Assembly: GCA_944472135.2 (NCBI GenBank) | Contig: OX235270.1 | Coordinates: forward strand, 144,661,632 to 144,725,631 | Direction: 5' to 3' | DNA length: 64,000 nt | DNA from: Trichobilharzia regenti | Lineage: Eukaryota; Platyhelminthes; Trematoda; Strigeidida; Schistosomatidae | Shown: piece by piece, positions 4,521-63,462 of the stretch | How positions within the stretch are numbered: position 1 is the stretch's first letter | How the letters are laid out: each line of letters starts with the position of its first letter | Program-made: the position numbers and the translations under genes | The notes under the pieces: generated by a model | Told to the model about the DNA's origin: nothing | Database searches by the model: none | What the model saw: the letters and a program-made list of their open reading frames with translations, nothing else

Positions 4521-4742
4521 CATGAAAAACACACCTGTTATTATTAAAATTACACTGTTCCGTAGTGTATTTGTTTTTTTTTATGTTGTACTGTGTACAA
4601 AAAAAACTTTATGCATTTACTTTTATTTTAGTATGTATGTATGATTCACGTGAGTAATATTTGTTGTCTGAATTTATTTCGATTGCATGGAGGATTTAAT
4701 CATGAGCTGACATCAGTTAGAGAACCACTGGAAAACCTGGGA

Positions 4743-4788
4743 GTACTGGACAGCTGTTTCGTCCTAGTTTGGGACTCCTCAGCAGTAC
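4743..4788 (-). ncRNA. Type I hammerhead ribozyme, array unit 1
   Basis: Minus strand, 5' to 3': helix I strand GUACUG (4788-4783), core CUGAGGA (4782-4776), helix II GUCC/GGAC (4775-4772 and 4764-4761) closed by loop CAAACUA, core GAAA (4760-4757), then a tiny palindromic helix III ACAGCUGU. C17 is at 4749 and the helix I partner CAGUAC at 4748-4743. Every invariant core base is present (position 7 may be any base), and the predicted cut falls between 4749 and 4748. Helix III has only three pairs with a two-base loop, as in other animal satellite ribozymes that act best as dimers. Identical copies lie every 401 bases, at +401, +802 and so on, up to 8352-8397. Confidence 0.88.
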
Positions 4789-4798
4789 GCACCCACCG

Positions 4799-4853
4799 GG
4801 ATTCGAACCCAGGACCTTCTGGTTACAAGGCGAGCTCGTAGACCATTGAGCCA
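4799..4853 (-). promoter_or_regulatory. Internal pol III promoter (A and B boxes) of the 401-bp unit
   Basis: Minus strand TGGCTCAATGG (4853-4843) fits the A-box consensus TRGYNNARNNG apart from one degenerate position. GGTTCGAATCC (4809-4799) is a perfect B box, 44 bases downstream. The B box sits in a perfect T-arm (CTGGG/CCCGG). The ribozyme begins about ten bases later, so a pol III transcript would pass directly into it. Repeats in every unit. Confidence 0.75.
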
Positions 4854-7800
4854 CTGGGACCCGATCCAATGGTCCTTGAATTCTAACTTCTGCCAGTTCA
4901 CGACATAGCGCGACCACTTCGCAATGTCTTCTTCGATGAGTTACTGCCTCATCTTCAACCTGCTGTACCCTACTGGTCACGGCTTCCCACTAGAACCCCA
5001 GGTTAACTGCCTGAATAGGGCCAGTCACTAGTGAGCATCAGATGAATTTTTAAGTATTGGTTTGTTGTAGGGATTTTGTTTGATTGCATGGAGGATTTAA
5101 TCATGAGCTGACATCAGTTAGAGAACCACTGGAAAACCTGGGAGTACTGGACAGCTGTTTCGTCCTAGTTTGGGACTCCTCAGCAGTACGCACCCACCGG
5201 GATTCGAACCCAGGACCTTCTGGTTACAAGGCGAGCTCGTAGACCATTGAGCCACTGGGACCCGATCCAATGGTCCTTGAATTCTAACTTCTGCCAGTTC
5301 ACGACATAGCGCGACCACTTCGCAATGTCTTCTTCGATGAGTTACTGCCTCATCTTCAACCTGCTGTACCCTACTGGTCACGGCTTCCCACTAGAACCCC
5401 AGGTTAACTGCCTGAATAGGGCCAGTCACTAGTGAGCATCAGATGAATTTTTAAGTATTGGTTTGTTGTAGGGATTTTGTTTGATTGCATGGAGGATTTA
5501 ATCATGAGCTGACATCAGTTAGAGAACCACTGGAAAACCTGGGAGTACTGGACAGCTGTTTCGTCCTAGTTTGGGACTCCTCAGCAGTACGCACCCACCG
5601 GGATTCGAACCCAGGACCTTCTGGTTACAAGGCGAGCTCGTAGACCATTGAGCCACTGGGACCCGATCCAATGGTCCTTGAATTCTAACTTCTGCCAGTT
5701 CACGACATAGCGCGACCACTTCGCAATGTCTTCTTCGATGAGTTACTGCCTCATCTTCAACCTGCTGTACCCTACTGGTCACGGCTTCCCACTAGAACCC
5801 CAGGTTAACTGCCTGAATAGGGCCAGTCACTAGTGAGCATCAGATGAATTTTTAAGTATTGGTTTGTTGTAGGGATTTTGTTTGATTGCATGGAGGATTT
5901 AATCATGAGCTGACATCAGTTAGAGAACCACTGGAAAACCTGGGAGTACTGGACAGCTGTTTCGTCCTAGTTTGGGACTCCTCAGCAGTACGCACCCACC
6001 GGGATTCGAACCCAGGACCTTCTGGTTACAAGGCGAGCTCGTAGACCATTGAGCCACTGGGACCCGATCCAATGGTCCTTGAATTCTAACTTCTGCCAGT
6101 TCACGACATAGCGCGACCACTTCGCAATGTCTTCTTCGATGAGTTACTGCCTCATCTTCAACCTGCTGTACCCTACTGGTCACGGCTTCCCACTAGAACC
6201 CCAGGTTAACTGCCTGAATAGGGCCAGTCACTAGTGAGCATCAGATGAATTTTTAAGTATTGGTTTGTTGTAGGGATTTTGTTTGATTGCATGGAGGATT
6301 TAATCATGAGCTGACATCAGTTAGAGAACCACTGGAAAACCTGGGAGTACTGGACAGCTGTTTCGTCCTAGTTTGGGACTCCTCAGCAGTACGCACCCAC
6401 CGGGATTCGAACCCAGGACCTTCTGGTTACAAGGCGAGCTCGTAGACCATTGAGCCACTGGGACCCGATCCAATGGTCCTTGAATTCTAACTTCTGCCAG
6501 TTCACGACATAGCGCGACCACTTCGCAATGTCTTCTTCGATGAGTTACTGCCTCATCTTCAACCTGCTGTACCCTACTGGTCACGGCTTCCCACTAGAAC
6601 CCCAGGTTAACTGCCTGAATAGGGCCAGTCACTAGTGAGCATCAGATGAATTTTTAAGTATTGGTTTGTTGTAGGGATTTTGTTTGATTGCATGGAGGAT
6701 TTAATCATGAGCTGACATCAGTTAGAGAACCACTGGAAAACCTGGGAGTACTGGACAGCTGTTTCGTCCTAGTTTGGGACTCCTCAGCAGTACGCACCCA
6801 CCGGGATTCGAACCCAGGACCTTCTGGTTACAAGGCGAGCTCGTAGACCATTGAGCCACTGGGACCCGATCCAATGGTCCTTGAATTCTAACTTCTGCCA
6901 GTTCACGACATAGCGCGACCACTTCGCAATGTCTTCTTCGATGAGTTACTGCCTCATCTTCAACCTGCTGTACCCTACTGGTCACGGCTTCCCACTAGAA
7001 CCCCAGGTTAACTGCCTGAATAGGGCCAGTCACTAGTGAGCATCAGATGAATTTTTAAGTATTGGTTTGTTGTAGGGATTTTGTTTGATTGCATGGAGGA
7101 TTTAATCATGAGCTGACATCAGTTAGAGAACCACTGGAAAACCTGGGAGTACTGGACAGCTGTTTCGTCCTAGTTTGGGACTCCTCAGCAGTACGCACCC
7201 ACCGGGATTCGAACCCAGGACCTTCTGGTTACAAGGCGAGCTCGTAGACCATTGAGCCACTGGGACCCGATCCAATGGTCCTTGAATTCTAACTTCTGCC
7301 AGTTCACGACATAGCGCGACCACTTCGCAATGTCTTCTTCGATGAGTTACTGCCTCATCTTCAACCTGCTGTACCCTACTGGTCACGGCTTCCCACTAGA
7401 ACCCCAGGTTAACTGCCTGAATAGGGCCAGTCACTAGTGAGCATCAGATGAATTTTTAAGTATTGGTTTGTTGTAGGGATTTTGTTTGATTGCATGGAGG
7501 ATTTAATCATGAGCTGACATCAGTTAGAGAACCACTGGAAAACCTGGGAGTACTGGACAGCTGTTTCGTCCTAGTTTGGGACTCCTCAGCAGTACGCACC
7601 CACCGGGATTCGAACCCAGGACCTTCTGGTTACAAGGCGAGCTCGTAGACCATTGAGCCACTGGGACCCGATCCAATGGTCCTTGAATTCTAACTTCTGC
7701 CAGTTCACGACATAGCGCGACCACTTCGCAATGTCTTCTTCGATGAGTTACTGCCTCATCTTCAACCTGCTGTACCCTACTGGTCACGGCTTCCCACTAG

Positions 7801-8256
7801 AACCCCAGGTTAACTGCCTGAATAGGGCCAGTCACTAGTGAGCATCAGATGAATTTTTAAGTATTGGTTTGTTGTAGGGATTTTGTTTGATTGCATGGAG
7901 GATTTAATCATGAGCTGACATCAGTTAGAGAACCACTGGAAAACCTGGGAGTACTGGACAGCTGTTTCGTCCTAGTTTGGGACTCCTCAGCAGTACGCAC
8001 CCACCGGGATTCGAACCCAGGACCTTCTGGTTACAAGGCGAGCTCGTAGACCATTGAGCCACTGGGACCCGATCCAATGGTCCTTGAATTCTAACTTCTG
8101 CCAGTTCACGACATAGCGCGACCACTTCGCAATGTCTTCTTCGATGAGTTACTGCCTCATCTTCAACCTGCTGTACCCTACTGGTCACGGCTTCCCACTA
8201 GAACCCCAGGTTAACTGCCTGAATAGGGCCAGTCACTAGTGAGCATCAGATGAATT

Positions 8257-8526
8257 TTTAAGTATTGGTTTGTTGTAGGGATTTTGTTTGATTGCATGGA
8301 GGATTTAATCATGAGCTGACATCAGTTAGAGAACCACTGGAAAACCTGGGAGTACTGGACAGCTGTTTCGTCCTAGTTTGGGACTCCTCAGCAGTACGCA
8401 CCCAAACTAGGACGAAACAGCTGTCCAGTACTCCCAGGTTTTCCAGTGGTTCTCTAACTGATGTCAGCTCATGATTAAATCCTCCATGCAATCAAACAAA
8501 TCCCTACAACAAACCAATACTTAAAA
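8257..8526. repeat. Foldback closing the right end of the 401-bp array
   Basis: Positions 8257-8382 and 8401-8526 are reverse complements, apart from one missing A in the right arm. They are separated by an 18-base spacer (8383-8400) and bounded by GGG/CCC. The spacer is the 5' half of the hammerhead of the partial tenth unit, so the turn-around point lies inside helix II of the ribozyme. The right arm keeps only the 3' half of a ribozyme on the plus strand. Confidence 0.9.
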
Positions 8527-8929
8527 TGAATTTATTTCTACAAATTTATTTCTTATGATAGATGAAGGCAGTTTTGATTAAGTTTGTTTTTCCCTCCTAC
8601 TGTGTGTACGTATTCAATGTTGTTTACATTCTGTGTGCATGGATACAAAAAATAAAAAAACAAAACGGCCTATTTCCTAATAAAGAATATATATATATAT
8701 ACTTTAGACTCTGAAAACAAAGTTCAGAGTGTCACTCACTAAAATGTAGCTTAATATTTTTGTTGTGTTTCATTAATGCATCAGTATATCACAGGCATAT
8801 CTGTCGTTCACTGTTCACTTGTTGGTAAAACTAATAGCAAAACAACATTGGTGTATAACAAACTTTATTTTTTTTTATAGGAATTGACTGATAAATACTA
8901 ATACCAATCATAATATAAAGGAACTATGT
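8527..8929. other. AT-rich spacer, nothing recognised
   Basis: Contains a short AT dinucleotide run near 8688-8700 and T-rich tracts. No gene or known repeat was identified. Confidence 0.3.
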
Positions 8930-9818: not shown

Positions 9819-10261
9819 TGGTACTTTAGGTTTATATTGCTATCAATAATTCAGTGACTCAGTTGAAATATACTACTGCTCGGAACCACTTCAATTGGTT
9901 CAATCTTGCTTAACATTTACAGACACACTCTAAGATGAGGATGATATTGATGATGACATGACGAATAACGATGTTGATGGGGGGATTGTGCCCGTGTTTT
10001 TTTGGAAGGAAAAACTGTTCACCATCAAACATCTAATGCCGAACACCTTACATTGATTTAACTTTCACTATTCCCGAACACTAATATTAAAACAATGGGC
10101 GACATTATAAAACAACGACGGATATCAAAGTGAACGCATGATTAGTGGCGGAAATCAAATTGAATCTCGTGGTTTAACCATCAGAATTACAGGACTTGTA
10201 GTCGTTTATCACCTGTCAGTTTCATTGCAAACATATGGAGTTTTCAGCTGCTTCTGCTACG
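9819..10261. other. Spacer, nothing recognised
   Basis: No gene, RNA or repeat could be identified in this stretch. The right end passes into the Penelope-like fragment. Confidence 0.25.
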
Positions 10262-10553
10262 TACAAATGGCGTACGCGAAGTCCCTTAAGACGATATTGA
10301 GGGACTCTGTGTAGCACTGTGAAGCATTCATGCAAGTGGGGGTGCTCGATGTCCGGAGGTGATAAGGTGTTCGAGGAGACAGCTTCTGCTATTCTTCTTT
10401 TCTCCTCTGGCTAACTAACCAAGCTAGACAGTGTTCCACAAAACGTTTGTGGACTTGACGTTGCGTACGGCCGATATACTTTGCTCCACACGAGCAAGTA
10501 AATCGATAGGTACACACTGAAGTGGCCAACAGTGCTGTCTTATCCTTAACGAT
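10262..10553 (-). pseudogene. Penelope-like GIY-YIG nuclease fragment, left arm
   Basis: On the minus strand the frame gives TYRFTCSCGAKYIGRTQRQV followed by HKRFVEH. This is the C-terminal GIY-YIG nuclease of Penelope-like elements, with the CxC zinc-type pair and the YIGRT signature. The frame at 10389-10613 runs into unrelated sequence at both ends, so the gene is truncated. Short of the reverse transcriptase, it is a dead 3' piece. Confidence 0.75.
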
Positions 10554-10571
10554 AGACTGGATTAACTGTTT

Positions 10572-10806
10572 GCGTCGGTGGCACAGTGGTTGGGACGCTC
10601 GCCGACCATGCACATGGTCCGGGGTTTGATCCCCGACCCCAGACGCACTCCTTTACCTCTCCAAACCAGTAATAAAAAAGCCGGTAGAGGGGAAAGGTTG
10701 GGCATGAGGCTAGTAACCTCATCCTGTAAAGTTAACACTGCTACAGAAACTTCAAGTTTCTAGCTGGATGCCCTATGTTCCACTGGGGACGTGAAGGAAA
10801 AAAACT
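10572..10806 (+). repeat. tRNA-headed SINE, copy 2
   Basis: GCGTCGGTGGCACAGTGG head with A box, a B-box-like GGTTTGATCCC (one change), the shared body gaggctagtaacctcatcc, and the tail cctatgttccactggggac ending in an A-run. It sits in the spacer of the Penelope-like inverted repeat. Confidence 0.85.
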
Positions 10807-10930
10807 GTCTGCTGGAGAATGTGATGCTTAAGGTGGCTACTGGAAATGTCTTCTTCAAACATTTAGAAAGTCGGTTTCTGATAGTTTCCTTTGCGATGTC
10901 ACTTTTGAATAAGATAAGATATCGCTTTTG

Positions 10931-11290
10931 GGCCACTTCAGTGTGTACTTATTAATTCACTCGCTCGTGTGGAGCAAAGTATATCGGCCGTACGCAACGT
11001 CAAGTCCACAAACGTTTTGTGGAACACTGTCTAGCTTGGTTAGTTAGCCAGAGGAGAAAAGAAGAATAGCAGAAGCTGTCTCCTCGAACACCTTATCACC
11101 TCCGGACATCGAGCACCCCCACTTGCATGAATGCTTCACAGTGCTACACAGAGTCCCTCAATATCGTCTTAAGGGACTTCGCGTACGCCATTTGTAAAAA
11201 GCTGAAGCATTAGCTATTCGGGATCTGAAACTGGACCTCTGCATTCAAAAACGCTGCATACATTCACTTGCTCTGCCGTGGCCAGAGTAA
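10931..11290 (+). pseudogene. Penelope-like nuclease fragment, right arm and 3' tail
   Basis: Plus-strand mirror of 10262-10527. It extends to about 11290 with the end of the coding region (a LCIQKR-like block appears in altered form) and then AT-rich 3' sequence. Stops and frame changes are present. Confidence 0.65.
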
Positions 11291-16345: not shown

Positions 16346-16574
16346 CGTTTCTTTAAAGAAACGAGTTAGATAAAACTCACAACTTAATAAACAACGTCTT
16401 CAACGACATCAAATTCACAAAGGAAGAGGAATCCGAGAACAAAGTACCATTTTTGGACGTCTTAGTCAAACGAACAGCCACAGGGGAGTTAGAAACTCAA
16501 GTTTATAGAAAATCAACTCACACAGACCAAATCCTAAATTACAACAACAACAACCCAATAACACACAAAAGGAA

Positions 16575-17066
16575 TTGCATACAAACACTATTCAAGAGGC
16601 AAGGACTCATTACAGCACTCCCCCCTTAAGAAAAATTGAAGAAAGATATCTCATGGATGTCTTTCAAAAGAATGGATATCCACGGAATTTCACCAAAAGA
16701 CGTATACACTCAAGCCAACCTATCAAAGCAAAAGCCACCAAGGAAAGCATAAAGAAAATCACCTTAACATATATAAAGGATGTCTCAGAAATCACTACAA
16801 GATTATTCAAACCTTTAGGAATTGACGTCGTACACAAACCAACAAATTCACTTCACTCAATTCTATGTAAACCAAAAACAGTGAAAGAAGATAAAACCAA
16901 CATTATGTACAAAATAAATTGTAACAACTGTGAAAAACACTATATTGGCCAAAGTGGACGTCCCCTTCGTCTTCGTATCCACGAACATAAGTTAGCCATC
17001 AAAAGACATGATATCCACTCCCTCATTTCACTACTCACAGACAACCACGGACATCAATTTGACTGA
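16575..17066 (+). CDS. Penelope-like element GIY-YIG nuclease region (partial, non-functional)
   Basis: A 163-codon frame inside the element at 16346-17448. It lacks the reverse-transcriptase half and stops where related copies continue, so it is a remnant. The residues HYIGQSG and RLRIHEH fit the GIY-YIG endonuclease that Penelope-like elements use for nicking target DNA (family knowledge). Confidence 0.65.
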   Translation: MHTNTIQEARTHYSTPPLRKIEERYLMDVFQKNGYPRNFTKRRIHSSQPIKAKATKESIKKITLTYIKDVSEITTRLFKPLGIDVVHKPTNSLHSILCKPKTVKEDKTNIMYKINCNNCEKHYIGQSGRPLRLRIHEHKLAIKRHDIHSLISLLTDNHGHQFD

Positions 17067-17364
17067 GACAACGTTCAAATATTAGACAGAGGAAACACTA
17101 AGAATGCTAGAGAATTTTTAGAAACCTGGTATTCCAGTGAATCATCAATCAATAGACACATAGAGATAGACAAAATTTATCAACCAATAAGAAAGAAACT
17201 TCACACACAAAGGGTCAAAGTTGAAGTCAAAGAAACGGTCAGTTCCAATACAAGTAACCTAGAAGGTGTGAAAACACACAAAAGCAACCAATCACGTTCC
17301 AGGTCACCAGGAGAGATGATTAACAAACTCGTGGAGAAATCTAAAAGCTCACTTCAAATTGAAG

Positions 17365-17410
17365 TATGCGCTGAAGATGTCATCCAGTAGGGTGACGAAA
17401 GCTTCGCAAA
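17365..17410 (+). ncRNA. Penelope-type hammerhead ribozyme motif, well-formed
   Basis: Helix I strand TGCG (17367-17370), core CTGAAGA (17371-17377), one unpaired T, helix II GTCATCC/GGGTGAC (17379-17385 and 17390-17396) closed by AGTA. GAAA (17397-17400), a loopless AGCU helix III, U17 at 17404 and helix I partner CGCA (17405-17408) follow. This is the minimal architecture described for ribozymes in Penelope-like elements. The extra T after the core and the two-pair helix III make solo activity doubtful; dimers would be needed. Confidence 0.6.
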
Positions 17411-17448
17411 TTAACCATCCAGCTCAAAGAACAAAACCACATCAAAAA

Positions 17449-19602: not shown

Positions 19603-19603
19603 T

Positions 19604-19850
19604 GCGTCGGTAGTATAGCGGTTAGGACGCTCGCCGACCATGCATATGGTCGGGGTTCGATCCCCGGCCGACGCACTCCTTTACCTCACTGAGCCAGAAA
19701 TAATGCTGGTAAAGAGGAAAGGTTGGGCATGAGGCTGGCTAGCAACCCCATCCTGTAAAAATTAAACACTGCTACAGAAACTTCAAGCCACTAGCTTGGA
19801 GCCCTATGTTCCACTGGGAACGTGAAGGAAAAATTATTATTATTATTATT
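19604..19850 (+). repeat. tRNA-headed SINE, copy 4 (best head)
   Basis: The head 19604-19674 folds as a tRNA-like cloverleaf. A seven-pair acceptor stem is formed by GCGTCGG (19604-19610) and CCGACGC (19668-19674). The A box TAGTATAGCGG (19611-19621) and B box GGTTCGATCCC (19654-19664) are both perfect. The body gaggctggctagcaacccc and the tail gccctatgttccactgggaa end in (ATT)n. It looks competent for pol III transcription and is probably a recent copy. Confidence 0.9.
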
Positions 19851-19919
19851 AACAATAATTTTTCCTTCACGTTCCCAGTGGAACATAGGGCTCCAAGCTA
19901 GTGGCTTGAAGTTTCTGTA
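19773..19919. repeat. Foldback of the SINE 3' end
   Basis: The last 70 bases of the SINE are followed by their reverse complement. The mirror axis is in the ATT repeat near 19846 and the arms run 19773-19840 and 19852-19919. The arms are almost identical. Confidence 0.9.
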
Positions 19920-19944
19920 TTTCTGTATTATTATTATTATTAAC

Positions 19945-20022: not shown

Positions 20023-20477
20023 ACGATTACGCTACATTTTGGTCATAAATAAAATCTCTTATTACTCTAAAATTTTATGCAAAGTGTTTGCGGAAATTAT
20101 CACAATTATTAACCTTTCGAACACTGAATCCAAAAAATACAATCTTATTGACAGATAATACACATAACTCACTGTTTGGATTTGTGGAATTTTTAAACAT
20201 AAACACATCTATAATTGTATATATTGTTGGATTTATATGTTCAAGTTGCTCCAAGTCAGTGAGTTTATGGTTAAGATATCATTTTAGTTAACTGTACTGA
20301 ACTATATTGCATGTTGTCTTATTGTATAGTTGTCGTCGCTTTTTGCCCTTTTTTCTGTGAACTGTTTCCTTTGTTGATGTTGTTCTCATTGTTTGTCCGT
20401 TATTTTCTGATTTTGAGGGGAGCAACCCAAAAAGTTGCTTCTCTCTAAACTTTTACTTAATGTAATCATTCTTTTCT
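20023..20477. other. Sequence upstream of the intact RTE, nothing recognised
   Basis: AT-rich sequence between the 5S pseudogene and the RTE leader. It could contain further RTE 5' sequence, since the true 5' end of the element is not clear. The 67-codon frame at 20088-20291 has no recognised domain. Confidence 0.3.
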
Positions 20478-23400
20478 CAGGCGTGAGGCTAGCAACCCCA
20501 CCCTGTAAACAAAATTGCTACAGAACCTTCAGCAAAATGAACCTCCTTGCACCAAAAGAAAAAGTCTGTGTAGGAACATGGAACGTCCGAACTATGTACG
20601 AGACTGGAAAAGCTGCCCAGATCGCCAACGAGATGAAAAGATACGGAATACAAGTGCTGGGAATATGTGAGAGCAGATGGAATGGGAGTGGACTCACCAA
20701 ATTGTCAACAGGTGAGTCAGTGATCTACTCCGGTCACCCAGAAGATAACCACACGCACACCGAGGGCGTGGCTATCATGATGTCACCAACGGCAACGAAA
20801 GCCCTGATACAATGGGAGGCGATTTCGTCCAGGATAATGACCGCCAGGTTCAACTCCAAAGGAAGGAAAGTGTCAATCATACAATGTTATGCACCCACAA
20901 ACAACGCAGACCTCGAGAAGAAAGAAGAATTCTACAGGCAACTACAGGCAACAATGGACAATACTCCAGCTGGCGACATGAAAATACTAATGGGAGACAT
21001 GAACGCCAAACTGGGACCAGACAATACGGGAAGGGAACTCATCATGGGTAGAGAAGCTCTAGGAGAAATGAATGAAAACGGAGAACTCTTCGCCGACTTC
21101 TGCGCCTTCAACGAACTGGTGATTGGTGGCAGTGTATACAAGCACAAAGATATCCACAAGGCTACATGGGTGTCACCAGACGGGCAAACCAAAAACCAAA
21201 TCGACTTCATCTCAATCTCAAGGAAGTGGAGGCGCAGCCTACTGGACACAAAAGCAAGAAGAGGAGCAGACGTTGGCTCAGACCACTATCTCGTACAAGG
21301 GACAATCCAAATCAAATTAAAAGCTTTCAGGGAATCAGGAGCTGCAGATAGACCACAAGCCAAGTTCAACACTCAAAAGCTGAAGGACCAGGCTACAAAG
21401 GACATCTTCATTGCAAGCATAAAGGACAAAGCCGAGACACAAATCAACACTAGCGAAGAGGTCGGCGTTGAAAAGCACTGGAACAACTTGAAAACGGTGT
21501 GGAGCCAAACCTGCATAGAAATTCTAGGCAGAAAAAAGAGACAGGACAAACAGTGGCTCACTACGGACACTTGGAAACTAATAGAAGAGAGAAGGACAGT
21601 GAAGCAAAAGATTATCCAGTGCTACGACGAGCAACAAAAACAGGAGCTGAATGCAAGCTACAATACACTGAACAAAAGAGTGAAGAAAAGTGCCAGGGAA
21701 GACAAAAGAAAATATTATGAAACCATGGCAAACGAAGCAGAACAAGCTGCAGGCAAAGGAGACCTCGCCACACTCTACCAAACAACTAGGAACCTTTCGG
21801 GCAAACGTTCGACACAGATTAAGCCAATAAAGGACGACAATGGAAAGTCAATCACCAAAGAGGTGGAACAGAGAAAGCACTGGGTTGAACACTTCAAAAG
21901 ACTTCTAAATCGTCCGCCACCTACAACACGTCCAGCAATACCAACAACGGAAGCAGAACTACCAGTGAACACTGACCCCCCGACGAAATCAGAAGTCCTG
22001 AATGCAATCAAGATGCTTAAAACTGGGAAAACACCGGGACCAGATGGAATCCCAGCAGAGGCTTTGAAAATAGACCCAGAGACAACAGCGGACTTGATGA
22101 CACCACTACTGGAGAAGGTGTGGAAAGAGGGCAAAGTACCCGAGGATTGGAAGAACAGTTACTTATTCAAACTTCCAAAGAAAGGAGACTTAAGTCAATG
22201 TAAAAACTGGCGTGGAATTATGCTTCTGTCCATTCCAAGCAAGATACTAAGTCGCATCATCCTGGAGAGAATCAAACAAGCCCTAGATGAAAAACTTCGT
22301 CCGGAACAGGCTGGATTCAGGAGAAACAAATCATGTATTGATCAAATCGCCACTCTACGGATCATCATTGAACAAAGCTTGGAATGGCAGTCACCTCTCT
22401 ATCTCAACTTCATCGACTTTGAAAAGGCCTTCGACAGCGTCGATCGAGAGGTCATTTGGAAACTACTTCGCTACTACGGGGTCCCATCGACAATTATACA
22501 CCTCATCCAACAGTTATACGACAATGCTGCATGCCAAGTAATCCACAACGGGAAACTTACGGAAGCCTTCGAAGTGAGGACGGGAGTGAGGCAAGGCTGT
22601 CTACTATCACCAATGATCTTCCTGATTGCAATTGATTGGATAATGCGACAGACAACGGCAACCAACGAGGGAACAGGCATAAAATGGACTGACACAAAAG
22701 ACTTGGAGGATCTGGATTTCGCCGATGATATATGTCTGATTTCCCATAAACTGGAAGATATGCAAATGAAAAGTAACAAGTTGGCAGAAGAAGCATCAAA
22801 GATAGGACTTCACGTGAACATAGATAAAACAGAGATGATGAAGATTCCTAGCCAACATCAACAGCAACAACAGACCACAATAAGCATAAATGGGAAGAAC
22901 CTGAAAGAAACAACCTCCTTCACCTACCTGGGAAGCATCGTCTCAACTACAGGCGGAACTGACGAGGACATCAAAGCCAGAATCGGAAAAGCAAGACAAG
23001 CTTTCATTACTCTCAAATCTGTGTGGAGGTCAACAGCAATCAGCATCAAAAATAAGATCCGGATTTTCAACTCCAATGTGAAGTCAGTGCTACTATACGG
23101 ATCAGAGACTTGGCGAGTCATAAAGAGCATCTCAAACAAACTTCAAACCTTCATTAACAACTGTCTCCGCTCAATACTCAAGATCAGATGGCCAGAAAAG
23201 ATCAGCAACAGGGATCTCTGGGAGCGAACCAATCAGGAACCGATTGTGAAACAAATAGGCAGAAAGAAATGGAGATGGATTGGCCATACGCTGAGGAAAC
23301 CATCAAGTGACATCACTAGACAAGCCCTCGAGTGGAACCCGAAAGGGAGGCGGCGAGTTGGTCGTCCAAGGGTGACTTGGAGGAGGTCATGTGAAGAGGA

Positions 23401-23535
23401 GATGAAAGCATGTGGGCAGACCTGGAGCAGGGTGAAAAAGTTGTCAAAAAACCGAAGTCAATGGAGGTGCGCAGCTGAAGCCCTATGTTCCTCTAGGAAC
23501 TAAAGGATACAATAATAATATAATAATTATTATTA
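20478..23535 (+). mobile_element. Full-coding RTE-clade non-LTR retrotransposon
   Basis: The leader (gaggctagcaaccccacc, then ctacagaaccttcagc) is shared with the SINE body. One long ORF follows. The 3' end has a very short untranslated region after the stop at 23503, then AATAAT/ATT microsatellite sequence, typical of RTE elements. At least seven partial copies occur in the window. No clear target-site duplication was seen, and the 5' boundary is approximate. Confidence 0.9.
20537..23503 (+). CDS. RTE retrotransposon polyprotein: endonuclease and reverse transcriptase
   Basis: Encodes 988 residues from the ATG at 20537, chosen because the conserved endonuclease starts ten codons later; an upstream in-frame ATG at 20435 lies before the leader. 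The apurinic-like endonuclease covers about residues 10-260, with N16 (GTWNVRT), E45 (CESRW), D154 and N156 (GDMN), and D249/H250 (GSDHY). The reverse transcriptase covers about 480-800, with motif A FIDFEKAFDSVD (625-636), motif B TGVRQGCLLSP from 682, and catalytic FADD (728-731). The C-terminal block KKWRWIGHTLRK, then GRRRVGRPRVTW, is usual in the RTE clade. No stop or frame break was seen, so it may be active. It lies antisense to the USP9X-like host gene, within its largest intron. Confidence 0.93.
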   Translation: MNLLAPKEKVCVGTWNVRTMYETGKAAQIANEMKRYGIQVLGICESRWNGSGLTKLSTGESVIYSGHPEDNHTHTEGVAIMMSPTATKALIQWEAISSRIMTARFNSKGRKVSIIQCYAPTNNADLEKKEEFYRQLQATMDNTPAGDMKILMGDMNAKLGPDNTGRELIMGREALGEMNENGELFADFCAFNELVIGGSVYKHKDIHKATWVSPDGQTKNQIDFISISRKWRRSLLDTKARRGADVGSDHYLVQGTIQIKLKAFRESGAADRPQAKFNTQKLKDQATKDIFIASIKDKAETQINTSEEVGVEKHWNNLKTVWSQTCIEILGRKKRQDKQWLTTDTWKLIEERRTVKQKIIQCYDEQQKQELNASYNTLNKRVKKSAREDKRKYYETMANEAEQAAGKGDLATLYQTTRNLSGKRSTQIKPIKDDNGKSITKEVEQRKHWVEHFKRLLNRPPPTTRPAIPTTEAELPVNTDPPTKSEVLNAIKMLKTGKTPGPDGIPAEALKIDPETTADLMTPLLEKVWKEGKVPEDWKNSYLFKLPKKGDLSQCKNWRGIMLLSIPSKILSRIILERIKQALDEKLRPEQAGFRRNKSCIDQIATLRIIIEQSLEWQSPLYLNFIDFEKAFDSVDREVIWKLLRYYGVPSTIIHLIQQLYDNAACQVIHNGKLTEAFEVRTGVRQGCLLSPMIFLIAIDWIMRQTTATNEGTGIKWTDTKDLEDLDFADDICLISHKLEDMQMKSNKLAEEASKIGLHVNIDKTEMMKIPSQHQQQQQTTISINGKNLKETTSFTYLGSIVSTTGGTDEDIKARIGKARQAFITLKSVWRSTAISIKNKIRIFNSNVKSVLLYGSETWRVIKSISNKLQTFINNCLRSILKIRWPEKISNRDLWERTNQEPIVKQIGRKKWRWIGHTLRKPSSDITRQALEWNPKGRRRVGRPRVTWRRSCEEEMKACGQTWSRVKKLSKNRSQWRCAAEALCSSRN

Positions 23536-23639
23536 ACATCAATCTTATGGTTCATCTCGATTAGGTGTTTAGCTATAGACGAAGTTGGTAGTCTGACACC
23601 TGCATCTATTGGTTTTTCACAATTTATTTATTTTTTAGC

Positions 23640-27534: not shown

Positions 27535-27645
27535 GTCTAGGAACATCATCACTCACTGAGAAATACAGATACATCCAGTTGAAGAGTCCCAAATAGGACG
27601 AAATGCGCATCCTGGATTCCACTGCTAGTCACCATCCACCAATTA
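27535..27645 (+). repeat. S-alpha-like repeat fragment with decayed hammerhead
   Basis: Helix I ATCCAG (27573-27578) and CTGGAT (27612-27617), helix II GTCC/GGAC and GAAATGCGCATC follow the schistosome S-alpha ribozyme design. The core reads TTGAAGA (27579-27585): the invariant C3 is T, so cleavage should be lost. The downstream actgctagtcaccatccacc end is the common S-alpha end. Confidence 0.8.
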
Positions 27646-49800: not shown

Positions 49801-49864
49801 ATGGAATGACATTCAATCAGTCATCCCACCAAAATGAAAACTGCCATTGAATTAAACACCTTAT

Positions 49865-50275
49865 TTATTTGATTGCATGGAGGATTTCATCATGAGCTGA
49901 CATCAGTTAGAGAACCACTGGAAAACCTAAGAGTACTATACAGCTGTTTCATCCTAATTTGGGACTCTTCATCAATACGCACACACCACCAGGGCTGGTT
50001 ACAAGGCGAGCCAGCACGTAGACCATTGAGCCATTGGGACCCGATCCAATGGTTCTTAAATTCTAACTTCTGCCAATTCACGACATAGCGCGACCATTTC
50101 GCAATGTCTTTTTCGATGAGTTACTGCCCCATCCTCGACATGCTGTACCCTACTGGTCACGGCTTCCCACTAGAACCCCAGGTCAACTGCCTGAATAGGG
50201 CCAGTCGCTAGTGAGCATCAGATTAATTTTCAAGTATTGGTTTTTGTAGGGATTTTGTTCGATTGCATGGAGGAT
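49865..50275 (-). repeat. Full-length 401-bp-type monomer
   Basis: Closely matches one array unit (start gattgcatggaggatttcat, end cgattgcatggaggat), so it even overlaps into the next unit by about 16 bases, as a piece of a former tandem would. The ribozyme has changes (core ATGAAGA, helix II GTCC/GGAT, cleavage site TAT), so it should be inactive. Confidence 0.85.
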
Positions 50276-50338
50276 ATGTCAGCTCATGATGAAATCCTCC
50301 ATGCAATCGAACAAAATCCCTACAAAAACCAGTACTTG
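50231..50338. repeat. Foldback at the end of the 49.9-kb monomer
   Basis: Arms 50231-50275 and 50294-50338 are reverse complements with one mismatch around an 18-base spacer. The spacer is itself the reverse complement of the monomer's next bases. The overall plan is the same as at the right end of the array. Confidence 0.88.
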
Positions 50339-50624
50339 AAAACCTTATTTATTTATTCAGTCAGTCAGTCAAATTGGAAACGTTTTCAGTATCGCATGTT
50401 GGACCTTGAAACATAACAAAAAACAAAAACAATGGGATCATAATTAGGTAAGCGAAATTTTTAAATATTTTATAAATCAGTGTAAAAATGAGTATAATAT
50501 GCTCATTTTCGGAGTAATGACATTCACTCATTTACGGAAATCTTAATGGTGTAGAATCCGTTAGCATGATCGATTAGTTATACCACTGGTAAATAAAAAT
50601 GAATATTTTAACTAGGATAACTAG

Positions 50625-61745: not shown

Positions 61746-61853
61746 CAGAATTCTCTAGAATAGTCGTCATTAACAATACTGATGTTCTTAAATACTATCC
61801 ATTTGGTAAATAAGATCAATGAAATTACAGTTCATTAAAGATGCATAAATTAT

Positions 61854-62614
61854 AATAAGCATAAAAATATAATAGAAAATAGAATATCAAATAAAAATAA
61901 GGAAATCTCTAGGGCTACAAATTAAGGATCATCAAAACCTTGATTGACGGTGAAAGTAAGGAAAGCGACTGAACCAACTTCTTCTCTTGGATACATAAGT
62001 TAGGTTTCTTAAAGTAGATCTCAACAAACTCAGCTATATGTAGTAGACGAACTCTTAAGGTAAAGTGAAGATTAGCAGGTATGCGGTAGATGACTTTGAA
62101 AGCTGCCTCGTTGACATCAATCTTGTGTTCTGTATCCACAAGATGAAACAGAATTGCGCTACGAATGGATTTTGTTTGTCTCTCACTTAACCCCACACAG
62201 GATGACGCTCAGAAATCCGACGATAAACACGCCTAATTGTACGGCCTATGTAACTAACTGTCTCCACAGGGGCAGTCAAATTGGTAGATGCACACAGAAG
62301 AGGCAAAACCAGGCAGTATATCTTTAACTCCCTAACGCAAAATAGAGGAGGTGGTTTTGAATGGATGGAGTAAGTCATCTACTGCATACCAAGTAATCTT
62401 CACTTTACCTTAAGAGTTCGTCTACTACATATAGCTGAGTTTGTTGAGATCTACTTTAAGAAACCTAACTTATGTATTCAAGAGAAGAAGTTGGTTCAGT
62501 CGCTTTCCTTACTTTCACCATCAATCAAGGTTTTAATGATCGTTAATTTGTAGTCATAGAGATTTCCTTAATTTTATTTGATATTCTATTTTCTATTATA
62601 TTTTTATGCTTATT
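61854..62614. repeat. Large inverted repeat of Penelope-like 3' ends
   Basis: Arms 61854-62095 and 62373-62614 are close reverse complements with a 277-base spacer. The left arm carries the C-terminal coding end and 3' tail on the minus strand; the right arm carries the same on the plus strand. Confidence 0.85.
61915..62378 (-). pseudogene. Penelope-like GIY-YIG nuclease fragment
   Basis: Two minus-strand frames overlap. One has VSYIGRTIRRVYRRISERHP (GIY-YIG signature). The other continues with RSAILFHLVDTEHKIDVNEA and KKPNLCIQEKKLVQSLSL. A frame change at about 62190 separates them, so the copy is dead. Same family as 53660-54350. Confidence 0.75.
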
Positions 62615-63034
62615 AAAACCTAATCGTCTTTCTCGGCTATAGAGCTTTTAGGTACCCAGCTTCTCATTTAGAATATCTTGTTCGTCCCTGTAACTGAAAC
62701 ACAGACTTGATATATGTTAATACGGAGGAATTTTTAGTATCGCACATAAAACTACCTAGTATCACCATGGATTGAATATGACATATTTTCAGCTTTTAAG
62801 TGTTCTATTTCCTAGCACAGTTATTTTGTTAAACAATCGCCTAGCAGCACGATTTTATTCCAAACAATCAGTTACTATTAACGCTATGGTTGAGTTATTC
62901 ACTGTTAAAGCTATAACAGCTACCAACTTATGTGTACAAAACTACTAAGAGAACTTGAATGCACCAGTTTGATTAAATCACTGGGCTACTCAAAATTCCC
63001 AACCCATCAAAATGCATCGCGTTCACTCCGTTTC
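62615..63034. other. Sequence without recognised features
   Basis: No gene, RNA or repeat was identified. Confidence 0.25.
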
Positions 63035-63462
63035 TGATGTGGCTGTGTTCTCTGAGCTCGATGGATTGCTTATGAAGCTGTCATTGCCTTATTAGGCGAC
63101 ATCTTCAGCACAAACTTCAATTGATTGAAGTGAGCTTTTACATTTCTCCACGAGTAGTTTATTAGTCATCTCTCCTGGTGTCCTTGGATGTGATTAGTGG
63201 TTTTTGTGTGTTTTCACACCCTCTAGGCTGCTTGTATTGGAACTAAGTGTTTCGTTGACTTGAACTTTGACCCTTTGTGTATGAGATTTCCTTCCTATCG
63301 ATTGGTAAATTTTGTCTCTATGTCGATGTGTCTTTTGATTGATGATTCACTGGAATACCAGGTTTCTAAAAATTCTATAGCATTTTTTGTGTTTCCTCTG
63401 TCCAACATTTGAACGCTGTTTGTTTCAGCCGAGTTGATGTCCGTGGTTTTTGATATGTATCC

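Follow-up and report, generated by a model that had tools for sequence, protein, structure and literature searches.

The window analysed here is a stretch of 64,000 nucleotides from the fluke Trichobilharzia regenti (contig OX235270.1, positions 144,661,632 to 144,725,631). Near its beginning lies a tandem array of 401-bp units with hammerhead ribozymes on the minus strand. Together with an inverted arm of 126 bp, this array stands between perfect 12-bp duplications, and the whole looks like a single insertion. Judged from the DNA, it is probably the outcome of one retrotransposition of a 401-nt non-coding ribozyme element, i.e., a metazoan retrozyme of the kind without long terminal repeats (non-LTR), which would have been copied from a circular RNA by the reverse transcriptase (RT) and endonuclease of a Penelope-type element. 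The scars are listed below; r1-r401 number the sense unit, which is the reverse complement of 5082-5482, and P and E denote the two kinds of outer end.

4669-4680: left target-site duplication, TGAATTTATTTC, an exact 12-bp repeat of 8527-8538
4681-8404, minus strand: long (P) arm, 9.3 head-to-tail units, outer end r401, inner end r287
8401-8526, plus strand: short (E) arm, inverted, 126 bp, r309 to r34, ending CTTAAAA
8527-8538: right target-site duplication, TGAATTTATTTC, an exact 12-bp repeat of 4669-4680

The two arms are joined via four common letters (8401-8404), and the terminal CTTAAAA of the short arm has one base fewer than the unit. The original prediction, which had been made from the letters of the window, mentioned neither the inverted arm (8401-8526) nor the 12-bp duplication. 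The window contains a second insertion of the same build, and its outer ends fall on the same unit positions as those of the array (r401 and r34-35).

49858-50354: second insertion, of a related and more diverged subfamily, same plan as the array
49858-49870 and 50342-50354: its 13-bp duplication, ACCTTATTTATTT, an exact repeat
49871-50275, minus strand: its P arm, outer end r401
50276-50341, plus strand: its E arm, outer end r34-35

The array proper (4681-8404) is perfectly periodic at 401 bp over 9.3 units with zero mismatches. The homogeneity claimed in the original prediction is thereby confirmed: a base-to-base comparison at an offset of 401 gives a single continuous identical run from 4681 to 8003 (3323 of 3323 bases). 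Tandem Repeats Finder reports a period of 401, 9.3 copies and a span of 4660-8404. The unit has a G+C content of 48.9%, the published retrozyme criterion being <50% in the text and <45% in Figure 1 of the pertinent paper (PMC7229834). It is non-coding, the longest open stretch in a fourfold sense unit being 90 amino acids. The circular unit is predicted to fold with −129.7 kcal/mol, as compared to −108.7 kcal/mol (standard deviation 5.6) in 60 mononucleotide shuffles, so the modelled circle appears to be unusually stable.

The architecture recurs across the genome. The search covered 954 Mb, of which the scaffolds C1-C8 (58-198 Mb each) make up about 911 Mb. A query of one unit yielded at least 210 matches, and those listed comprised 34 loci besides the window array. 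These 34 loci and the two window insertions form a first sample of 36, in which loci with a full-length match were favoured. With a second sample described below, 41 retrozyme loci were examined, two of them in the window. An outer end counted as E at r26-44 and as P at r383-r10; all remaining ends formed a third class. Two arms are present in 21 of the 36 loci and are oriented head-to-head in all 21. They abut within −22 to +7 bp in 20 of these pairs; at locus L015, 218 bp lie between them. A three-piece complex (L014) is a 22nd multi-armed locus and stands outside the pair count. Most pairs (17 of 21) combine an E end with a P end; three combine E with another end (L026, L035 and L042_43) and one has two P ends (L016). 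The automatic tally had been 16, 4 and 1, and trimming the duplication of the window array moved one pair to E+P. The remaining 14 loci have a single orientation: an array that takes up 11,121 bp of contig C22 (12,525 bp in length), five E-ended loci and eight P-ended ones.

Both outer ends are flanked by an exact repeat (≥10 bp) in 23 of the 36 loci, when ±10 bp around each end were searched (wider to the left of the window array, where the duplication was already known). Their lengths are 12 bp in fifteen loci, 13 bp in five, and 10, 11 and 14 bp in one each, with the caveat that L027 lies within an AT repeat and L039 within low-complexity sequence. They are present in 20 of 22 multi-armed loci, versus 3 of 14 of the others. 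Controls with shifted right flanks reached a score of at least 9 in 53 of 2160 cases. A wider hunt for distant duplications in 15 loci, mostly of single orientation, revealed nothing new and convincing. If the target nick is oriented by the E strand, T is found at −2 in 17 of 22 cases and G at +1 in 11 of 22.

The second sample was obtained by a search with the second window insertion and consists of five loci that are 88-89% identical to this query; segment by segment, they are about 91-98% identical to the array unit. Three of the five are two-armed, all head-to-head with E and P ends, and have duplications of 13 bp, 12 bp (16 bp with one mismatch) and 13 bp. The other two are single, E-ended and show 9-bp repeats.

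The ends point to two fixed starts of the complementary DNA (cDNA): one arm begins at r~36, its partner usually at r~401. The 36 nt in between (r1-r36) comprise 21 A, 9 C, 6 T and no G.

5046-5082, minus strand: region between the cDNA starts P (r401, 5082) and E (r35-36, 5047-5046), as located between the first two units

A purified Penelope element is known to use two adjacent internal RT starts, whose spacing equals a genomic tail of 30-40 bp; its start region is AC-rich, both strands are extended and 5'-ATT-3' is preferred as target (PMC11167929). In rotifer Penelopes, the bounding arms are head-to-head, and one of them may carry a tail of 31 bp (PMC3846280). Starts 36 nt apart and head-to-head arms match this published signature and thus argue for a Penelope-like mechanism.

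T. regenti has a Penelope family of its own. A 606-aa open frame in L054 matches RVT_1 (5e-10) and, under the cut-off, GIY-YIG (0.92). A Penelope protein of this genome agrees at 98% over 47% of its length with a T. regenti protein (P0012) and is 73% identical over 61% to a protein of T. szidati (P0011). The ends of this family were examined in nine genome loci and three window copies, pieces cut by a border being outside the count. In the coordinates of L048, the ends cluster at 2552-2556 (six ends) and at 2587-2592 (ten ends), 35-40 nt apart; two lie elsewhere (L047 at 2413 and L057 at 2534). L048 itself is head-to-head, has one end of each kind and an 11-bp duplication. The window copy 1017-1412 consists almost entirely of its 3' ends, paired head-to-head, again with one end of each kind, and is flanked by an 11-bp duplication with one mismatch (ACTAACTCACA at 1006-1016 and ACTATCTCACA at 1413-1423). 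No convincing duplication was found at the other copies of these nine loci and three window copies. The window copies of the family are 16401-17447, 1017-1412 and 63031-63448, and the genome loci are L046-L058. Among 40 candidates scored, 39 further loci are 92-93% identical to the window copy. A search with PF01541 (GIY-YIG) for further Penelope families gave a single match.

The lengths of the arms bear on the shape of the template. The cut monomer starts at r334, which is 68 nt upstream of P and 103-104 nt upstream of E; longer cDNAs are therefore impossible from a linear monomer. In 18 of the 21 pairs, the shorter arm, on which the sampling imposes no great length, is longer than this limit by over 5 nt. 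Overall, the shortest cDNA arms measure a few tens of nt and the longest 9448 nt. In the first sample, where the choice by full-length matches biases arm lengths upward, 28 of 55 arms extend beyond one further lap and 17 of 55 exceed 802 nt. For the same reason, the deviation of the 5' ends from uniformity (Rayleigh p ~0.003) is uninterpretable. cDNAs that run for many laps beyond the ribozyme cut need an RNA that is joined across the cut, which is best a circle. The longest arm (L040_41) touches 24 laps, with one variant in 2 of 24 units and two single variants; among the three longest, only L042_43 (7594 nt) has a duplication. In the 6020-nt arm of L030, three variants are fixed in 15 of 15 laps. 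Variants of single loci likewise repeat lap after lap in L035 (6T and 265C), L019 (348C) and L014 (391A), and this, like the lack of mismatches in the 9.3 units of the window array, speaks for a circular template. The already mentioned contig C22 (L044, L045; 12,525 bp) holds 28 units with variants shared in blocks; it is perhaps an exchange-driven, true satellite stage of the retrozyme.

Put together, the events may be pictured as follows. The RNA of the unit would be transcribed from the minus strand and cleaved by its own hammerhead. A host ligase, as reported for other animals, would then close the monomer into a circle. A Penelope-type endonuclease/RT, probably as a dimer, would cut both strands of the target at a distance of 12-13 bp from each other; the duplications can be seen directly, the enzyme is presumed. 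On each strand one cDNA would be primed, at the internal sites E and P that are 36 nt apart and evident from the end positions. Because the template would be a ring, the RT could continue for any number of laps. Joining of the two cDNA ends would finally produce the head-to-head insert that is observed. In the window array, copying would have gone on for 9.3 laps in the P strand and stopped after 126 nt in the E strand. We are inclined to see here rolling-circle target-primed reverse transcription, in which a Penelope-type enzyme uses two internal starts on a ribozyme-made circle and, in up to about 24 laps, builds a satellite-like array in one event. If this is true, it is the internal starts that would allow an RNA lacking a 3' end to enter the genome as a copy, and this would be how the hammerhead satellites of flukes are born. 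The scars, in any case, give the return of retrozymes to DNA a concrete form: fixed starts, a 36-nt step, duplications of 12-13 bp and many laps. They also offer an origin of the ribozyme-bearing satellite DNA of flatworms in single events, not in slow exchange.

A number of observations weigh against this picture. No 10-bp repeat was found in 11 of the 14 single-orientation loci (one of them contig C22) and in two of the 22 multi-armed ones, L016 and L019. Laps of one arm can differ: in L017, an A is inserted in three of the 7 laps (4-6), L018 has 208A in 2 of 4 laps, L021 has 181A in 4 of 5 and L010 has 135A in two of its three laps. Where both arms cover the position of a private substitution, it is common to both in only 4 of 27 cases and confined to one arm in 23, a count that sets three diverged loci apart and includes, among the 23, two in the untrimmed duplication of the window array. 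In the diverged loci, the common ones are 0 of 17 (L019), 1 of 7 (L010) and 2 of 3 (second window insertion). In L010 and L019 the long arm, moreover, changes the retrozyme subfamily part way, possibly because the RT jumped between two different RNAs during insertion. The 4 of 27 common substitutions and the two-RNA pattern of L010 and L019 imply that one ring per insertion is not the rule. Further, three of 66 arms (L010, L037 and L062) end at r333/r334, where 0.33 would be expected (Poisson 0.005, post hoc), a hint that linear RNAs, already cut, served as template in some cases; if so, the ribozyme would act in the worm. As a proof of linear templates, an enrichment of cDNA 5' ends at the cut site was rejected, since it concerns these three of 66 arms only. 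Nor is the Penelope family of the window clearly the helper. A tail in common with the retrozyme (CAGCTCA, CTACAA and their spacing, noticed by eye) was discarded, as it was equalled by 140 (local) and 131 (global) of 1000 shuffles; the match is no better than chance, and the helper may thus be another family. A hammerhead suspected by eye in the Penelope copy L048 (CUGAAGA...GAAA) was not found by Rfam at E up to 10.

The same Penelope-type integration might have used a different template: instead of a circle, an array already in place would have been transcribed into a long, linear multimer that stayed uncut. Arms that can pass 9 kb (L040_41), the L021 variant that is present in only four of five laps, and the long arms of L010 and L019, which switch subfamily as if copied from a mixed multimer, would fit such a template. 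Frangieh et al. (PMC11167929) also report that, in vitro, a Penelope element worked mainly on uncut RNA. Up to 24 consecutive ribozymes would, however, have to remain uncut. Also, most arrays are near-identical inside and the loci are set apart by private variants, whereas the satellite-like contig L044_45 has mixed units, which its multimer transcript would inherit. We consider this template unlikely. An ordinary satellite, in which a monomer or dimer was inserted and later grew by unequal crossing-over (or returned as circular DNA), the ribozyme being incidental, is a quite improbable alternative. Tandem hammerhead satellites are, of course, well known in schistosomes, and a return as circular DNA has been raised for the W elements of S. 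mansoni (PMC8490949). In the present material, contig C22 with its 28 units (L044_45) shows the block-shared variants that exchange makes, smaller variant blocks occur in L017, L018 and L021, and growth inside an old insertion is possible for the longest arrays. Yet the window array and L042_43 have zero variant blocks, and in L040_41, which lacks a duplication, a single variant is shared by 2 of the 24 units. The E and P ends of the long arrays, moreover, are also those of short arms (67-1354 nt), which makes a second process unnecessary.

Very unlikely, in our view, is that a long interspersed nuclear element (LINE), the RTE of this genome, mobilises the retrozyme by classic twin priming on linear RNA, as it would a short interspersed nuclear element (SINE). 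A full RTE open reading frame is present in the window (20417-23503), and inverted 5' ends do occur in LINE insertions. The tail of the RTE, however, resembles that of another element of the window, a tRNA-type SINE (19797-19862 versus 23476-23546, 75%), and among the matches listed its 3' end (23451-23530) had none to the retrozyme. In classic twin priming the second cDNA starts at varied sites; here most of the second cDNAs share one start, at a distance of 36 nt from that of the first. The nick consensus, TT followed by G, is also unlike the TTTT/AA of L1-type elements.

Of the hammerhead ribozymes, nine or ten had been predicted, and Rfam Hammerhead_1 (RF00163) finds ten complete matches on the minus strand with 53.5 bits each (gathering score 34, E 4e-11). 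They are of type I and follow each other every 401 bp from 4743-4788 to 8352-8397.

4743-4788, minus strand: hammerhead copy 1, RF00163, 53.5 bits, cut between 4749 and 4748
5144-5189, minus strand: hammerhead copy 2, RF00163
5545-5590, minus strand: hammerhead copy 3, RF00163
5946-5991, minus strand: hammerhead copy 4, RF00163
6347-6392, minus strand: hammerhead copy 5, RF00163
6748-6793, minus strand: hammerhead copy 6, RF00163
7149-7194, minus strand: hammerhead copy 7, RF00163
7550-7595, minus strand: hammerhead copy 8, RF00163
7951-7996, minus strand: hammerhead copy 9, RF00163
8352-8397, minus strand: hammerhead copy 10, RF00163, without tRNA-like part upstream
4799-4809, minus strand: B box GGTTCGAATCC of the first unit, r273; every 401 bp, nine in total
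4843-4853, minus strand: A box-like TGGCTCAATGG of the first unit, r229; every 401 bp
4788-4860, minus strand: degenerate tRNA-like module of the first unit; RF00005, scored on the second unit (5189-5261)
4732-4735, minus strand: TTTT in the sense RNA of the first unit, r347-350, 14 nt past the cut, a possible terminator of RNA polymerase III (pol III)

Mapping by sequence places the cut between 4749 and 4748 (r333/r334), precisely as predicted, and the hammerhead indeed starts 10 nt beyond the B box at 4799-4809, where about ten bases had been stated. The A and B boxes are what we take to be such by their consensuses. A tRNA-like promoter in each unit, as originally proposed, must be qualified: the module is real, yet degenerate, scoring 19.6 bits with RF00005 (5189-5261; gathering score 29), and it is missing at copy 10, because the array breaks off at 8404. 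By sequence, nine degenerate modules with nine B boxes face ten ribozymes. ARAGORN, run with the bacterial code, detected zero tRNAs across the window. The single TTTT run on the sense strand of the unit (r347-350) could, by the usual rules for pol III start and termination, end pol III transcripts at about 130 nt, short of the full unit. Substitutions in the hammerhead core are seen in L019, L025, L038 and the second window insertion; activity of every copy is therefore not likely.

By comparison with known systems, the element is a candidate member of the metazoan non-LTR retrozymes that were described by Cervera and de la Pena (2020, PMC7229834). These are described as having a type I hammerhead per unit (here ten RF00163 matches), tandem units of ~150-450 bp (here 401 bp, 9.3 units), no coding region, as is the case for the 401-bp unit, and a target-site duplication of more than 4 bp (12 bp at the array). 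Their authors propose that the template is a circular RNA and regard Penelope elements as strong candidates for the helper. Expression as linear and circular RNA is reported there, whereas circles of the present element are presumed. In the main text of that paper the words "inverted" and "head-to-head" are absent, and the accessible text describes neither a double start site nor an array bounded by duplications. Both the circular RNAs of animal retrozymes and the idea of Penelope elements as helpers have thus already been published, and the route and the enzyme that return the circular RNA to DNA stand in print as a hypothesis (PMC7229834, PMC7761336, PMC11722881).

Hammerhead arrays of S. 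mansoni comprise W26.2 (399-402 bp), W27.2 (403 bp), W25.2 and W36.2/SMalpha (332-335 bp) (Stitz 2021, PMC8490949). They form arrays on the W chromosome and many dispersed autosomal copies, and a duplication was suspected at one copy of W25.2. The tandem hammerhead units of W26.2 and W27.2, from a related worm, are nearly equal in length to the present unit and are likened to it by length only. The original view of the array as a candidate animal retrozyme is supported, its novelty by unit length is not (PMC8490949). As far as its accessible text goes, the same paper names reintegration of circular DNA, has Penelope in the reference list only and does not use the term retrozyme.

With Penelope-like elements (Arkhipova 2013, PMC3846280; Frangieh 2024, PMC11167929) the retrozyme shares the head-to-head order of the arms, one of which bears a tail of 30-40 nt, short duplications, an A/C-rich start region, an AT-rich target and, in some of their families, a hammerhead. 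The duplications of rotifer Penelopes are 8-10 bp long (PMC3846280), those of the retrozyme 12-13 bp. Penelope-like elements encode an RT and a GIY-YIG endonuclease; the retrozyme unit is non-coding, and it works like one of them but is none. Among the open-licence papers listed on this subject, no title or beginning of an abstract gives an account of flanked multi-lap insertions with a Penelope signature. What is new here is the edges of the array; hammerhead arrays of about 400 bp in schistosomes and non-LTR retrozymes in animals were known before.

Other elements of the window may be mentioned in brief. Its best hammerhead, with 64 bits the closest to the Rfam consensus, is found at 27573-27617 in surroundings that match the array unit weakly. 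Compared with RNA families (microRNAs and others), the palindromes of the window gave unrelated matches under the gathering score. The one at 19756-19936 is tail-to-tail, unlike the head-to-head retrozyme pairs; two more large fold-backs lie at 10249-11209 (arms of 279 nt, 97%) and 61837-62631 (arms of 260 nt, 93%). The 3' tails of the tRNA-type SINE (19603-19833) and the RTE LINE (20417-23530) resemble each other (75% over 72 bp, in part an ATT repeat), and the two elements are perhaps a separate SINE-LINE pair.

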